Shown here piece after piece: positions 5,246-57,733 of a stretch of 64,000 nucleotides of DNA. Made by a program: the position numbers and the translations under genes. This stretch comes from Lentilitoribacter sp. Alg239-R112. Its GTDB lineage: Bacteria > Pseudomonadota > Alphaproteobacteria > Rhizobiales > Rhizobiaceae. The notes beneath the pieces are model-generated. The model did no database searches. It was not told where the DNA came from and saw only the letters and a list, made by a program, of their open reading frames with translations. How positions within the stretch are numbered: position 1 is the first letter of the stretch; each line of letters begins with the position of its first letter. The stretch is taken from assembly GCF_900537175.1 (NCBI RefSeq), contig NZ_LS999833.1:2170001-2234000 (forward strand), given 5' to 3'.

Positions 5246-6007
5246 CTATACTCCAGACATTGATGCTTGAGAATGCGATGTTTGTGGTTGCGATGCATGC
5301 TGTTGAACTTGCGAACGCTCATCCAATTGACGAGACAAAATGCCGGAAAATTCGTCGGCAAAACCCTCCATACGCGAGCTTAATTTCGCAGCATCTGCGG
5401 AAAATTTGTTATAAGCAATCACCGCTGGGATCGCTGCCAACAGACCAATCGCTGTTGCTAACAGCGCCTCGGCAATACCCGGAGCAACAACGGCCAAATT
5501 TGTGGACTTAGAACCCGCAATCGCCTGGAATGATGTCATAATACCGATTACTGTACCAAACAAGCCAATGAATGGTGCAGCAGAACCAATTGTCGCTAAC
5601 CAACCAAGACGAGACTCTAGAGCCTCTGACTCGCGTACCAGTGCAACGTCCATGGCTTTATCGATCCGCATTTGAAGACCCATCGGGGTTTTCGCACCGC
5701 GCTCAAATGATTTCTTCCATTCCTGCATCGCACTTAGAAAAATTGCGCCCATACCTGAGTTCTTTTTTCGTTCTGAAAGAGATCGATATAACTCTTCCAG
5801 AGACTGCCCCGACCAGAACAAATCCTCGAAACGATCAAGCTGTATCTTAGCTTTTTTATACGCAATAACCTTGTTGACAACAATTGCCCATGTCCAGACT
5901 GAGGCAGCCAGAAGTCCCAACATCACTAATTTTACGACAAAACCTGCCTCTAAAAACAGTGACAAAAGCGTCACATCAGAAGTAGCGGCCAATCCAACTT
6001 GTTCCAT
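5246..6007 (-). CDS. tolQ: Tol-Pal proton-channel subunit TolQ (MotA/TolQ/ExbB family)
   Basis: The 253-residue inner-membrane protein has three membrane helices at about 20-43, 138-162 and 172-195. The second region contains the family signature GLFGTVIGIMTSFQ and the third LLATAIGLLAAIPAV. TolQ forms the pentameric stator around the TolR dimer. It is the first gene of tolQRAB-pal, and the 230-base gap upstream (6008-6237) probably carries its promoter. That gap includes TTAATGAAGCGTTAG near 6172, a near-match to a CtrA box. The product lacks anything unusual. Confidence 0.97.
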   Translation of the reverse strand: MEQVGLAATSDVTLLSLFLEAGFVVKLVMLGLLAASVWTWAIVVNKVIAYKKAKIQLDRFEDLFWSGQSLEELYRSLSERKKNSGMGAIFLSAMQEWKKSFERGAKTPMGLQMRIDKAMDVALVRESEALESRLGWLATIGSAAPFIGLFGTVIGIMTSFQAIAGSKSTNLAVVAPGIAEALLATAIGLLAAIPAVIAYNKFSADAAKLSSRMEGFADEFSGILSRQLDERSQVQQHASQPQTSHSQASMSGV

Positions 6008-49034: not shown

Positions 49035-49133
49035 AGACGCCGATAATCGGGTCACATAAACCGCAATCAGGTCGCCAATAACGGGACCATGAATTGTTTA
49101 ACGCTAAACATAGTTGCTCAATGGAGAACACAT
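49035..49133 (+). promoter_or_regulatory. Possible ROSE-like RNA thermometer in the hsp20 leader
   Basis: The leader contains successive short stems (CCGATAATCGG near 49040; GGTC...GACC near 49071-49088; GTTTA/TAAAC near 49095-49109). Then TTGCTC comes a few bases before ATGGAGAA, which holds the ribosome binding site. A U-U-G-C-U next to the Shine-Dalgarno is the hallmark of ROSE elements in rhizobial small heat-shock genes. Pairing with GGAG is imperfect here, so this is a candidate only. Confidence 0.45.
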
Positions 49134-49622
49134 ATGCGTCATGTAGATTTTTCACCTTTTTACCGTTCAACAGTTGGATTTGATCGTCTGTTTACGATGC
49201 TAGATAGCCTCGGACAGCCTGAACAACAAACAACATCCTACCCACCTTATAATATCGAGCGCACAAGCGAAGATGCCTATACAATTACAATGGCAGTCGC
49301 TGGCTTTTCCGAGGAAGACCTCGACATTGAAGCACGCGAAAATACGCTGACAATTAAGGGTGAGAAGAAGGATGAAAGCGAACAAAACGAAGAAGCTAAG
49401 AATGTAACCTACCTTCACCGTGGCATCGCAACCCGTGCCTTTGAGCGACGTTTCCAACTCGCTGAACATGTACAAATTCAGGGTGCAAACCTCAAAAATG
49501 GTTTACTTCATGTCGAACTTGTTCGTGAGGTTCCGGAGGATAAAAAACTTCGTAAAATTGAGATTGCAGGCACCAATGCAAAGCAAACAAAAGCAAAGCA
49601 GATTGAAAGCAAAAAAGCCTAA
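49134..49622 (+). CDS. Small heat-shock protein Hsp20 (IbpA-like)
   Basis: The protein has 162 residues from the ATG at 49134 (MRHVDFSPFYRSTVGFDRLF), with GGAGA upstream; an ATG at 49089 is in frame but lies in the leader. The alpha-crystallin domain (about 35-130) includes YTITMAVAGFSEEDLDIEA and LTIKGEKKDES. The C-terminal I-x-I anchor is IEI (in LRKIEIAG). It is an ATP-independent holdase for unfolding proteins. The promoter is a consensus sigma32 site. Convergent with the bufferin operon. Confidence 0.95.
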   Translation: MRHVDFSPFYRSTVGFDRLFTMLDSLGQPEQQTTSYPPYNIERTSEDAYTITMAVAGFSEEDLDIEARENTLTIKGEKKDESEQNEEAKNVTYLHRGIATRAFERRFQLAEHVQIQGANLKNGLLHVELVREVPEDKKLRKIEIAGTNAKQTKAKQIESKKA

Positions 49623-49687: not shown

Positions 49688-49718
49688 AAAATGGCGTCTC
49701 AAGGACGCCATTTTTATT
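49688..49718. terminator. Bidirectional terminator between hsp20 and the bufferin operon
   Basis: AAAATGGCGTC (49688-49698) and GACGCCATTTT (49704-49714) are perfect 11-base arms with a 5-base loop and T or A tracts either side. It ends both hsp20 and the convergent DoxX gene. Confidence 0.9.
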
Positions 49719-49738: not shown

Positions 49739-50305
49739 CTATTTTGCAGAACGGAAGAACAGATGATCCAGTGATATCTTTCCTCCACCTTTTATCACTA
49801 TGACTGTAAGAACAAATATCCAAAGAAGTCTTTGATCAAGAATGAGGCTATCCGGTAATCGGTCAAACAACTTTCCAGTGCTTTCCGCGCCTATTTGATG
49901 GGCATATACATCGGTTAATGACTGGACAATAACAAAGCCAATCATACCAGCTGCTGCCACACGTGAGAATAGCCCAACAACAATCAACAATGGCAAAATA
50001 AACTCGGCATATGTTCCGACAAACACCAACAACCCCCAAGGGAAAAAAGCTACGGCAGCAGGATCATATCCGGCAGCCTCGACCGCTGTCCCAGCTATTT
50101 GGAAGTAGGCACCGTCTGATATTTGAAAGAAACCCAGAAAGCCTTCACCCACTTTCGTAAGTGCGGAATTCAAATAATAAAAATAAAGGACCGCAGCAAA
50201 CACAAAACGAGCAGCAAGACCCAAAAACCAGCCATCTGTTACTCTCTCGATAAATCCGAACACCGCATCATTTAGCCCTCGTATCATCGTTATTAACCCT
50301 GTCAT
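49739..50305 (-). CDS. DoxX-family membrane protein, fourth gene of the bufferin operon
   Basis: The 188-residue protein has four membrane helices (about 28-46, 72-92, 98-120, 150-170) of the DoxX type (FVFAAVLYFYYLNSALTKVG; FILPLLIVVGLFSRVAAAGM). DoxX proteins are inner-membrane, possibly redox-linked. It is the last gene after bufA, bufB and bufC, the order of the Caulobacter gold- and copper-induced gigABCD operon. Its exact role there is unknown. AGGGGATGA precedes the ATG. Confidence 0.87.
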   Translation of the reverse strand: MTGLITMIRGLNDAVFGFIERVTDGWFLGLAARFVFAAVLYFYYLNSALTKVGEGFLGFFQISDGAYFQIAGTAVEAAGYDPAAVAFFPWGLLVFVGTYAEFILPLLIVVGLFSRVAAAGMIGFVIVQSLTDVYAHQIGAESTGKLFDRLPDSLILDQRLLWIFVLTVIVIKGGGKISLDHLFFRSAK

Positions 50306-50337
50306 TTTGTCATCCCCTAATTGTAATTAATACTGGC

Positions 50338-51129
50338 TTACTCAGCCAAAACGCATTCAATGAACATTCCGGATTCAACCATGGTAGATATAGCCATTGC
50401 TATGTCAAATGCCTCATCTAAGCTAGCTGCTTCATTTGCAGCATCTCCAAGTGTACGACCAGCAACCAAACTATCGTAGAATACTTTGGCACTTTGCGGT
50501 ATTTGGCGTACGTCCACGTCCGTGTCAGGTCGTGTAATCAAGCAAGATTCGCCAACCGAGGGATCAATACCTTCCATAGATTGTTCTTGCCTATTTGCCG
50601 AAAAAATTGAAACAGCTGCAAACTGGCTCGAAAACAATCTTGTTGCAGGGTGTGGCCTAAACGTTAAATCACCCAATTGTTCGGGTGGAAAACTGGATAA
50701 TACATCTAGCGCGAGCGGCGTTTTATCAGCCGCGTGATACGCATCGAGCCATAGCCGTTCGATACGTGCAACATCCGCTAGATACGGATATTGTTGTAAC
50801 GGTTCAAAACACTCAACGAAACTTGCAAAACTATGACCATATTCAAACATCAATGGTGATGTTGGCGGTTCATTGGCCACATAAATTCGCGCCAGGTTTT
50901 TAAACGCCTCTTCGCCCAATAACCTTTGAATAGCAGGGAAAATATCGGCAAGTGCACCCGTGAGCCCGACCACAACATTATTGCGATAGACAGAAAAACG
51001 TTTCTGATCTGATTTCCCACTCGGACTTACCAAACCCGAAGGGCAAGGTATTTCAGGATCTAACAGAAGTGTGGAAAATAAACTTTGCGAAACCGAATAC
51101 TGACCATCAAGCTCATTCAGCCGCGACAT
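50338..51129 (-). CDS. bufC: BufC/HvfC-type partner protein (DUF2063 DNA-binding-like domain)
   Basis: The protein has 263 residues from the ATG at 51129, which overlaps the end of bufB by 17 bases; the frame continues to 51162. The N-terminal DUF2063 domain (about 8-100) has RFSVYRNNVVVGLTGALADI, FPAIQRLLGEEAFKNLARI and YPYLADVARIERLWLDAYH. Family members recruit the precursor peptide to the MNIO enzyme (partner protein), despite the DNA-binding name. The C-terminal part is less conserved. Translational coupling with bufB agrees with a complex. Confidence 0.9.
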   Translation of the reverse strand: MSRLNELDGQYSVSQSLFSTLLLDPEIPCPSGLVSPSGKSDQKRFSVYRNNVVVGLTGALADIFPAIQRLLGEEAFKNLARIYVANEPPTSPLMFEYGHSFASFVECFEPLQQYPYLADVARIERLWLDAYHAADKTPLALDVLSSFPPEQLGDLTFRPHPATRLFSSQFAAVSIFSANRQEQSMEGIDPSVGESCLITRPDTDVDVRQIPQSAKVFYDSLVAGRTLGDAANEAASLDEAFDIAMAISTMVESGMFIECVLAE

Positions 51130-52036
51130 GACGATCTCCAAGCAACGGATGTTCTGGCACATTGTTTAAAATAGCTTCCGCTAGTTTAGCTTCTCGGCGC
51201 AAAATTGGCCAATCAGGCACATCATTGTCCCACTCGACGAGAGTAGGAATTGGTCCCATTTGGGTCACAACATCTTTATAAAGCCCCCAAACCTCGTCAG
51301 ATACAGGGCGGTCATGTGCATCAATCAGTAATGTTTCACCATCATCATCTATATCCTCAGCGTGACCGGCCAGATGTATTTCACCAACATGACTAAGCGG
51401 GAAATTACGAAGATATTCTTTAGGGCTAAATTTATGATTGGTCGCCGATACAAATACATTATTAATATCAAGCAACAATCCACAACCAGCACGTCGCGCA
51501 ATCTCGGTGATGAAGTCAGTCTCACTCATCGTACTTTGCGAAAATGCGACATAAGTTGATGGATTTTCGAGCAAAATCGGACGTTTCAAACGGTCTTGTA
51601 CTTGGCTGATATGATTGACAACGCGATCTAATGTCTCTTTATCATAGGGAACCGGAAGCAAATCATTATAGTAGTGTGTATCATGAGTTGACCAGGCTAA
51701 ATGCTCAGACACAATACCGGGTTGATAACGATCAACGACTTTCGCAAGCCGTTCGATATGCATGTCATCCAGACCTTTTTCTGACCCGATGGAAAGTCCG
51801 ACACCGTGAACTGTGATCGGAAAATTTTCCCGAATTTTGGTCAGTGATCGGTGCGGCATGCCGCCATCACCCATATAATTTTCAGCATGAACCTCAAAAA
51901 AGCCCATTTTAAACTTATCGGCCAGAATATCATCAATATGCTGGCCTTTAAGCCCAGCCCCCGCTCGCGCGGGAACTGTACTATCTACAGGATAGGATCG
52001 ATCAGCTGGGATAGGCCGGGGGGTGGCATTCAACAT
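51113..52036 (-). CDS. bufB: MNIO-family enzyme (DUF692), bufferin-maturing BufB
   Basis: The protein has 307 residues from the ATG at 52036 (AGGAG seven bases upstream); a TTG at 52057 is possible. The TIM-barrel metal-binding blocks typical of multinuclear non-haem iron oxidases are present: EVHAENYMG, VHGVGLSIG, SEHLAWS, LLENPSTY, LLLDINNVFV, GEIHLAGHAED, IDAHDRPV and VEWDNDVPDW. These enzymes modify cysteines of the precursor, to thiooxazoles in studied bufferins. It lies between precursor and partner genes. Identity is clear; the exact product here is inferred. Confidence 0.93.
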   Translation of the reverse strand: MLNATPRPIPADRSYPVDSTVPARAGAGLKGQHIDDILADKFKMGFFEVHAENYMGDGGMPHRSLTKIRENFPITVHGVGLSIGSEKGLDDMHIERLAKVVDRYQPGIVSEHLAWSTHDTHYYNDLLPVPYDKETLDRVVNHISQVQDRLKRPILLENPSTYVAFSQSTMSETDFITEIARRAGCGLLLDINNVFVSATNHKFSPKEYLRNFPLSHVGEIHLAGHAEDIDDDGETLLIDAHDRPVSDEVWGLYKDVVTQMGPIPTLVEWDNDVPDWPILRREAKLAEAILNNVPEHPLLGDRHVAAE

Positions 52037-52078
52037 CTCAAAACTCCTATACTGCAAAATACTACTTAATTAACAGAA

Positions 52079-52381
52079 TTAAGCAGGAAGATCACGTGTT
52101 AGTGGCTCAAGTGAACCTTTACGGTCACCTTCAACTGACATTGAAACACATGTACCAGCTTCAACAGCTTTCCAAGCATTGCCTTGATAATCTACTGTAG
52201 ATGTACCAGCGCATGAAGTACCAGGACCGGCTGCACAGTCGTTTTTGCCAGCAAGTGATACGCCATAACATTTTTCTTTAGCCGCTTGTGCACCAGTTGT
52301 AGAAGCAACTAGAGTTGCACCAGAAAGAGCCATTGCAACAGCGCCAGCAAGTGCAGATGCACCAATAATTTTCTTAGACAT
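52079..52381 (-). CDS. bufA1: Bufferin-type RiPP precursor (DUF2282, BufA1-like)
   Basis: The 100-residue peptide has a signal sequence of about 33 residues ([19 protein letters not shown]...AQA). The mature part contains four cysteines (38, 49, 57, 78) in the family spacing: [40 protein letters not shown]. Unlike most RiPP leaders, this one is a Sec signal, so the matured peptide acts in the periplasm. Studied homologues bind copper. Ribosome binding site AAGGAGAA. Upstream is a 636-base non-coding region. Confidence 0.92.
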
Positions 52382-53017
52382 ATAAATTCTCCTTAGGATG
52401 ATATATCATCAAGATTGAAGGTCTCCAGCGGACCCGACAGATATAGTTCTACCCAAACCACTGATCAAATGGAAATCAACCACGCGTTAGATTTGATCAA
52501 CTCGATGTGATCACTTCGCGAGTGAAAGATCCCTAACTTGGGTTAAAACAGCTCAAACAGGTTCAAGGCTTACCTGTTTTGGGGTTGCTATAGCGATCAT
52601 AAAAATCGGCTAATATATTTGTTAGAAAGTCAAATTCGAACTTCTACATTATATATAGTACATTAGACAAATATACACAGGCGCGATAAAAGTCGTACAG
52701 TGATCTTGATATTCAATTAAGATTCTGGCATACGAGGTCTTAAATAGGACAGTATTACTGTCCTAATATTGTCACAATAAATTATAATTCGTTTGTGATG
52801 ATACCAGTCTAACCTCGTTACCGCACCATCTTGACCGATAGCGGAGCCGAGCAAATGACACATACAAGATGATTTGGCAGATATAGTCGTTTCCAAAACG
52901 ATCTTGCTCTATTTGATCTTGTGGCACTTTATAAAATGCCGACATTATTTCATCTGGCCCACCTGAGAGCCGGAAACGAAGGATGACCGCCCAATTGGGG
53001 GCCAAAAGGAGACCAAG
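52382..53017. other. Long divergent intergenic region between the bufferin operon and gltB
   Basis: No convincing gene is present in these 636 bases. Visible elements are AAACAGGT...ACCTGTTT (about 52556-52580, arms 8 bases) and the 10+10 palindrome (52745-52765). A two-step hairpin, CTCG/CGAG enclosing CCGC/GCGG (52814-52851), and TCGTTT/AAACGA (52887-52901) follow. Both divergent promoters must lie here; none matches a sigma70 consensus well. A minus-strand frame (52772-53029) is judged non-coding. Confidence 0.6.
52745..52765. promoter_or_regulatory. Perfect 10+10 palindrome between bufA and gltB
   Basis: TAGGACAGTA (52745-52754), one base, TACTGTCCTA (52756-52765). This is a strong dimeric-regulator operator. 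It lies 364 bases upstream of bufA and 253 upstream of gltB, so its target is unclear. A second pair of arms, TCACAA (52772-52777) and TTGTGA (52793-52798), lies beside it. No T tract follows, so it is not a terminator. Confidence 0.6.

Positions 53018-57733
<4,716 letters not shown>

Follow-up and report, generated by a model that had tools for sequence, protein, structure and literature searches.

What controls the bufferin operon of Lentilitoribacter sp. Alg239-R112 was the question raised by a four-gene locus, bufA-bufB-bufC-DoxX, carried on the minus strand at positions 49739–52381 of a 64,000-nucleotide stretch of contig NZ_LS999833.1 (hereafter the window). The locus is a Buf1 (DUF2282) bufferin operon, an assignment of which we are practically certain. 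CenK–CenR, a two-component system that responds to envelope stress in the Alphaproteobacteria, is often essential. Our explanation as a whole, a Buf1 copper-buffering operon under predicted CenR-type promoter control, is highly probable, and promoter sequences make it reasonably likely that CenK–CenR itself controls the operon of the window. Direct control of bufferins by CenK–CenR across much of the Hyphomicrobiales is a broader proposal to which we give slightly better than an even chance; it would take two forms, one promoter class working with SigF at a fixed 25–26 nt and the window's class working without SigF, with tandem CenR sites on a distinct core promoter.

A sequence-only reading of this DNA had spoken of the Caulobacter gig genes, but the gig name belongs to Cupriavidus and Legionella and had to be given up here. 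The Caulobacter bufferin genes are part of the SigF regulon (PMC3511200). The same reading had noted that no extracytoplasmic function (ECF) sigma factor gene lies nearby and that regulation may differ from Caulobacter, and both points held. None of the five Sigma70_r2 matches of the genome falls inside the window, and a search for NrsF gave 0 matches in this genome, with the Caulobacter control detected; NrsF was likewise not found in 47 of the 61 genomes searched. At the window promoter, the SigF motif GTAACC-N16-CGAA had 4 mismatches within 150 nt, and the best SigF-like match upstream of bufA (2 mismatches, at −207, spacer 17) was no better than chance.

For comparison with relatives, the window and 117 loci, 118 sequences in all, were searched with profiles of the window genes and of a SigF–NrsF pair, and 100 upstream rows were obtained from 98 loci, window included. 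Twelve of 110 loci could not be parsed by the script and were read by hand instead; two of these (L014 and L050) had neither the SigF motif nor the operator repeat described below, and L085 gave no bufA. Some contigs were present twice under two identifiers (e.g. L007/L043, L009/L048, L015/L066 and L017/L080). Two kinds of buf1 locus were seen. The sequence TTGATTTCCA, at no more than one mismatch, was found in 47 of the 100 bufA upstream rows, compared with 0.48 expected from shuffles, and GTAACC-N15-17-CGAA at the same stringency in 32 (300 nt). Neither motif was present in 21 rows, and no row had both. Loci with one or the other are called element-type and SigF-type below.

In the window, the element, which occurs in buf1 upstream regions without a SigF motif and was recognized from the aligned rows and by profile, reads TTGATTTCCATTTGATC (52463–52479, minus strand). 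Conservation places a putative −35-like hexamer, TTTCCA, at 52470–52475 and a putative −10-like hexamer, TAGAAC, at 52446–52451 (both minus strand), the second base of the latter being A in 36 of 37 aligned promoters. If this conserved A is position −11, transcription would start at about 52439. In positions counted on the element alignment, the 37 promoters, all less than 80% alike, have T-N-A-C/T half-sites at about −42, −31, −20, −10, +1 and +12, an 11-bp phase, and the A conserved in 36 of 37 is at +29. When 150 of 988 candidates in this genome were scored with a profile of the element region, the buf locus gave an E value of 2.8e-11 and the next match 0.025. To explain the element label, at least 10 changes are required on starred branches of the BufB tree, compared with 4 for the SigF label; the promoter types are therefore clustered rather than single clades.

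That the compound element might govern a larger regulon was considered and set aside: all 7 matches with E values under 1e-6 in 25 genomes lay at buf, and the best match elsewhere had an E value of 0.003 (150 candidates scored in each genome). A weak hit with this E value, in a genome of the same genus (L217, 1501–1567), lies upstream of a glutamate-synthase-like open reading frame, named by eye, and adjoins a UspA-like one, a possible second regulon member. The element pattern shifted by one position was also rejected, with 13 matches beyond buf and 14 for the reversed control, as was the palindrome GATGATATATCATC at 52396–52409, which is not kept in the same-genus loci L004 and L005. A sigma-70 scan reported 11 sites (7.3 expected), and the proposed promoter was not among them.

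The two promoter classes share an inverted repeat, TCAC-N6-GTGA. For these counts, rows at least 80% alike were removed, which reduced the 100 rows to 89 (29 SigF-type, 39 element-type and 21 other). At no more than one mismatch within 160 nt, the repeat was present in 25 of the 29 SigF-type rows, 33 of the 39 element-type rows and 10 of the 21 others. As controls, 11 permuted operators gave 0–4 matches per set, other spacers at most 7 (SigF-type and element-type sets), and dinucleotide shuffles an average of 1.6, 2.1 and 1.0 for the SigF-type, element-type and other rows, respectively. Neighbouring upstream regions of the same loci had the repeat in 4 of 34 cases for gltB and 1 of 33 for hsp20. 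Of 26 SigF-type rows with the repeat (up to two mismatches), 22 have it 25–26 nt ahead of the SigF motif, and hand reading of six unparsed Sinorhizobium/Ensifer loci found SigF motif and repeat at this same distance; the buf promoter of S. meliloti pSymB has the repeat with one mismatch, 25 nt from its SigF motif. The window has two predicted CenR-type operators on the minus strand: operator 1, TAACGCGTGGTTGA (52476–52489, 2 mismatches), overlaps the conserved element, and operator 2, TCACATCGAGTTGA (52497–52510), has 1 mismatch. A weak third half-site pair, TCGCGAAGTGATCA (52508–52521, minus strand), follows in the same 11-bp phase.

CenR was suggested as the binder by published sites. In vitro, S. 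meliloti CenR binds AGTCAC-N6-GTGACT beside the −35 region of srlA (PMC9561847), and R. sphaeroides CenR sites have the form TGA-N8-TGA (PMC9275681). A matrix built from 31 R. sphaeroides CenR sites was tried as a discriminator of the promoter classes and rejected, because SigF-type promoters had high scores too; it was this result that led to the shared repeat being noticed. Given the start proposed above, operator 1 would be centred at about −43, and the srlA operator lies at 42. The genome encodes a CenR ortholog (L198, 227 aa) with D55, L95, K105 and E159, all four of the residue positions reported for S. meliloti CenR (PMC9561847), whereas the other 15 OmpR-type regulators of the genome match at most two. 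ChvI was rejected as the binder, since its published motifs, TTGC-N3-GCAA and GCC-N8-GCC, do not fit. We propose that transcription would proceed from a promoter with 11-bp-phased TCAC-N6-GTGA-type operators next to its −35 region and that CenR would bind these operators; with CenR bound there, we predict that envelope stress sensed by CenK–CenR, and not by SigF–NrsF, would switch the operon.

Several results weigh against this proposal. Both operators in the window depart from the repeat, one by 1 mismatch and the other by 2. The repeat is missing from 4 of 29 SigF-type rows, two of them betaproteobacterial (Caballeronia L093 and Paraburkholderia L106) and two alphaproteobacterial (L029 and L032), from 6 of the 39 element-type rows, from 11 of the 21 others, and from three unparsed, hand-read SigF-type clusters with a low-scoring BufA (L095, L105 and L113). 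A class-wide sample of 29 loci, of which 26 were parsed, including one from the same order (L254), gave nine SigF-type rows with 2 repeats, both at about 50 nt and none at 25–26 nt; the element was found in 2 loci, and the repeat occurred in 5 of 15 others. The fixed layout is therefore one seen mainly in Hyphomicrobiales. The rows are related by descent, which shuffles do not correct, and some rows come from one contig present under two identifiers. The gene tolQ is a CenR target in R. sphaeroides, but as a positive control it was not clearly positive and has been kept as contrary evidence: by the CenR matrix, 4 of 30 tolQ upstream regions exceeded the 95th percentile of shuffles, and among 29 upstream regions the repeat, at no more than one mismatch, lay within 160 nt in 2 and within 250 nt in 6 (permuted operators, 0–4), three of the six belonging to the window's genus. 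No strong site was found upstream of the cenR candidate. Finally, Brucella EssR shares 33 of 47 CenR peaks (PMC10746171), and a regulator other than CenR may therefore bind here.

The BufB proteins of L093 and L106 nest among alphaproteobacterial SigF-type rows, and their promoters have kept the SigF motif and not the repeat. The buf genes of these two genomes are a probable transfer to the Betaproteobacteria, and loss of the repeat there fits an operator made useless without its regulator, CenR being presumed absent from those hosts. The window's tolQ (5246–6007) has modest CenR-matrix scores upstream (8.4 and 8.3) and a one-mismatch repeat at −216, which also occurs at −231 in the same-genus L172 and L180.

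The array could be bound by a different member of the OmpR family whose half-sites resemble those of CenR, such as an EssR ortholog or a regulator that senses copper. The 16 OmpR-type DNA-binding domain matches in the genome, together with the shared Brucella peaks and the tolQ result, speak for such a binder; the arms and 6-nt spacer of the repeat are nevertheless those shown for CenR in S. meliloti (PMC9561847), where the buf promoter itself carries the repeat with one mismatch, and we consider a different binder possible but unlikely. Control by a SigF-like factor from a distant ECF gene would have three ECF-sized sigma factors elsewhere in the genome (L035–L037) to draw on. Against a SigF profile, however, these scored 128–138 bits and buf-linked members 185–257 bits except two (40 and 149), the profile having been built from such buf-linked hits, and SigF acting from elsewhere in the genome was dropped as very improbable, with NrsF and the motif both absent. 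It is also improbable that the element serves as a general promoter of the housekeeping kind, kept only through locus synteny. It does travel with the gltB–hsp20 synteny, but the gltB and hsp20 upstream regions of the same loci mostly have no repeat, SigF-type loci outside this synteny carry it (25 of 29), and among the 150 of 988 candidates scored in this genome the compound element is strongly supported only once.

What the operon does was judged from published family members. In Buf1, central cysteines are modified to thiooxazoles and the first and last cysteines form a disulfide, and under copper stress bufferins improve growth (PMC12452194). By analogy, BufA would carry an export signal at synthesis; BufB, an MNIO that depends on iron and is guided by the RRE-bearing BufC, would turn the two central BufA cysteines into thiooxazoles, and the outer pair would form a disulfide. 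The exported peptide would then sequester surplus copper in the periplasm, and DoxX would play an accessory part in the membrane. On this basis, the operon probably buffers copper in this organism. The peptide might instead serve another metal or stress (cadmium, chromium, gold or oxidants) more than copper, in line with the response of the Caulobacter SigF regulon to chromium and cadmium (PMC3511200) and with known MerC–bufferin fusions (PMC12452194); we regard this as doubtful, as it is under copper stress that published bufferins raise growth (PMC12452194).

The gene cluster itself is an ordinary member of the Buf1 bufferin clusters, since the published core set consists of precursor, MNIO, DUF2063 protein and DoxX (PMC12452194). 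The order of precursor, MNIO enzyme, partner and DoxX given by the sequence-only reading was recovered at the coordinates below with matching Pfam families, marginally so for DoxX, and the operon is single-copy, holding the sole MNIO and sole DUF2282 matches of the genome (3.9 Mb, 99% complete). The Buf1/DUF2282 precursor gene bufA (52079–52381, minus strand; 100 aa) matched PF10048 with 83.4 bits (Pfam cut-off 22.4). Its four cysteines, which had been placed at 38, 49, 57 and 78, are exactly there, and 100 of 100 compared BufA rows (window included) have exactly four, although the pattern used to select rows already demanded three. The N-terminus, judged by eye only, has a Lys-rich start, a hydrophobic stretch and an AQA/A-like end, and a Sec signal is plausible.

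The MNIO maturase gene bufB (51113–52036, minus strand) encodes a protein with 358.5 bits for MbnB_TglH_ChrH (Pfam cut-off 25), above the cut-off of the bufferin-maturase family MNIO_BufB (NCBIfam NF050167, 385.9 bits compared with 310) and under that for HvfB (240 compared with 360). Among solved structures, phmmer matched it to 3bww, TglH (8hci) and MbnB entries; 24 His/Asp/Glu/Asn positions are invariant across 92 of 92 BufB proteins, and the nearest named match is from Hoeflea poritis (73% identity), which puts the genome within or close to the Rhizobiaceae. The product of bufC (50338–51129, minus strand), a DUF2063 and RRE partner protein (PME-type 1), matched PF09836 with 81.4 bits (Pfam cut-off 27.2). 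By sequence, no relative of BufC was found in the PDB at E ≤ 1, and relatives were seen by fold alone: its AlphaFold2 model (mean predicted local distance difference test score 91.5) matched just three PDB entries at E ≤ 0.001, two of TglI (8hci/8hi7) and one of NGO1945 (3dee), structures used to define the MNIO partner proteins (PMC12452194). The DoxX-family gene (49739–50305, minus strand) encodes a protein just under the PF07681 cut-off (22.4 bits compared with 23.6) that can be aligned with DoxX proteins from other clusters. It belongs to a long form, which in an alignment of 14 has additional segments not present in the short DoxX of SigF-type clusters (long: window, L038, L040, L045, L053, L060 and L065; for comparison: L074, L080, L086, L091, L100, L109 and L114). 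Long DoxX (>150 bits) was found in 30 of 35 element-type and 0 of 22 SigF-type loci; L080 and L086 are element-type yet have the short form.

Tight spacing with a bufB/bufC overlap had also been described, and the genes are indeed separated by 42 nt (bufA–bufB), a 17-nt overlap (bufB–bufC) and 32 nt (to DoxX). The overlap follows from the starts favoured by ribosome-binding sites: the longest bufB frame opens at TTG 52057, but ATG 52036 is favoured by AGGAG 7 nt upstream, and the first in-frame ATG of bufC is at 51162, with ATG 51129 favoured by GGAG upstream. The gene for an Hsp20/IbpA-like small heat-shock protein (49089–49622, plus strand), correctly noted as adjoining, is a conserved neighbour outside the operon and convergent with DoxX. 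Between the two lies an inverted repeat (49688–49715), from its fold a probable terminator, with a hairpin of −15.4 kcal/mol (z −4.7; 0 of 200 shuffles as good), which the terminator scan did not report. On the other side is the divergent, conserved gltB (53018–57733, plus strand).

Among contig loci with full flanks, gltB and hsp20 both flank buf in 23 of 25 element-type loci (hsp20 only in the other two), whereas neither gene was near buf in any of 17 SigF-type loci, 7 of which have NrsF. As this synteny tracks locus type, the adjacency of hsp20 is not by chance, judging from gene order. Seven of the 11 full-flank loci with neither motif have gltB and hsp20 and one has NrsF; 8 full-flank loci were unlabelled as to promoter type. 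In eight loci examined, a threonine-aldolase-like gene, named by eye, occupies the gltB–buf gap of Hoeflea-type loci and is missing in the window. The Oricola loci L069 (5106–5951) and L071 (5105–5935) have a tandem pair of bufA genes. In L095 (2954–3749) and L105 (4556–5227), a gap of about 0.7–0.8 kb, which may hold the inserted genes (adjamnio-VI) of PMC12452194, separates the bufB and bufC frames, and SigF–NrsF lies downstream. The record of S. meliloti ABS7 pSymB (L257) has annotated bufB, bufC, DoxX and DUF1109 (NrsF-type) genes, with bufA unannotated and its DUF2282 frame interrupted.

In the accessible text on the CenR regulon, bufA is not named as a target. DUF692 and CenR were not found together in any of the freely accessible papers searched; in the text found there, bufferin regulation was not tied to CenR, and of five CenKR papers one mentioned copper once and the other four did not mention it. 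Within the same scope, neither the promoter class nor the operator it has in common with SigF-type promoters was found described. If the proposal is true, copper buffering would be wired into envelope-stress control. A conserved operator common to both kinds of promoter points to a candidate regulator, and the CenR proposal is directly testable in S. meliloti, for which purified CenR and cenK mutants exist (PMC9561847).

Compared with known systems, the operon resembles the captophorins/oxazolins (HvfABC) in combining an MNIO with a DUF2063 partner and in its predicted product, a thiooxazole peptide linked to copper, but its precursor is of the DUF2282 type rather than one of EGKCG repeats, and its BufB falls below the HvfB cut-off. 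With Caulobacter CC3254–CC3257 it shares four genes in the same order, a DUF2282 precursor with four cysteines, a DUF2063 partner and, by a borderline family match, DoxX; unlike that cluster, it stands in a genome without NrsF, behind a promoter without the SigF motif and in a gltB/hsp20 neighbourhood, and its DoxX has 188 aa compared with 150 in CC3257. With the CenK–CenR regulon (S. meliloti srlA, R. sphaeroides), it has in common 11-bp phasing, a CenR ortholog and, with 1 and 2 mismatches in the window's predicted copies, TCAC-N6-GTGA by a putative −35 region, and what sets the window's element type apart from that regulon is the presence of several tandem sites together with a strongly conserved TTTCC core.

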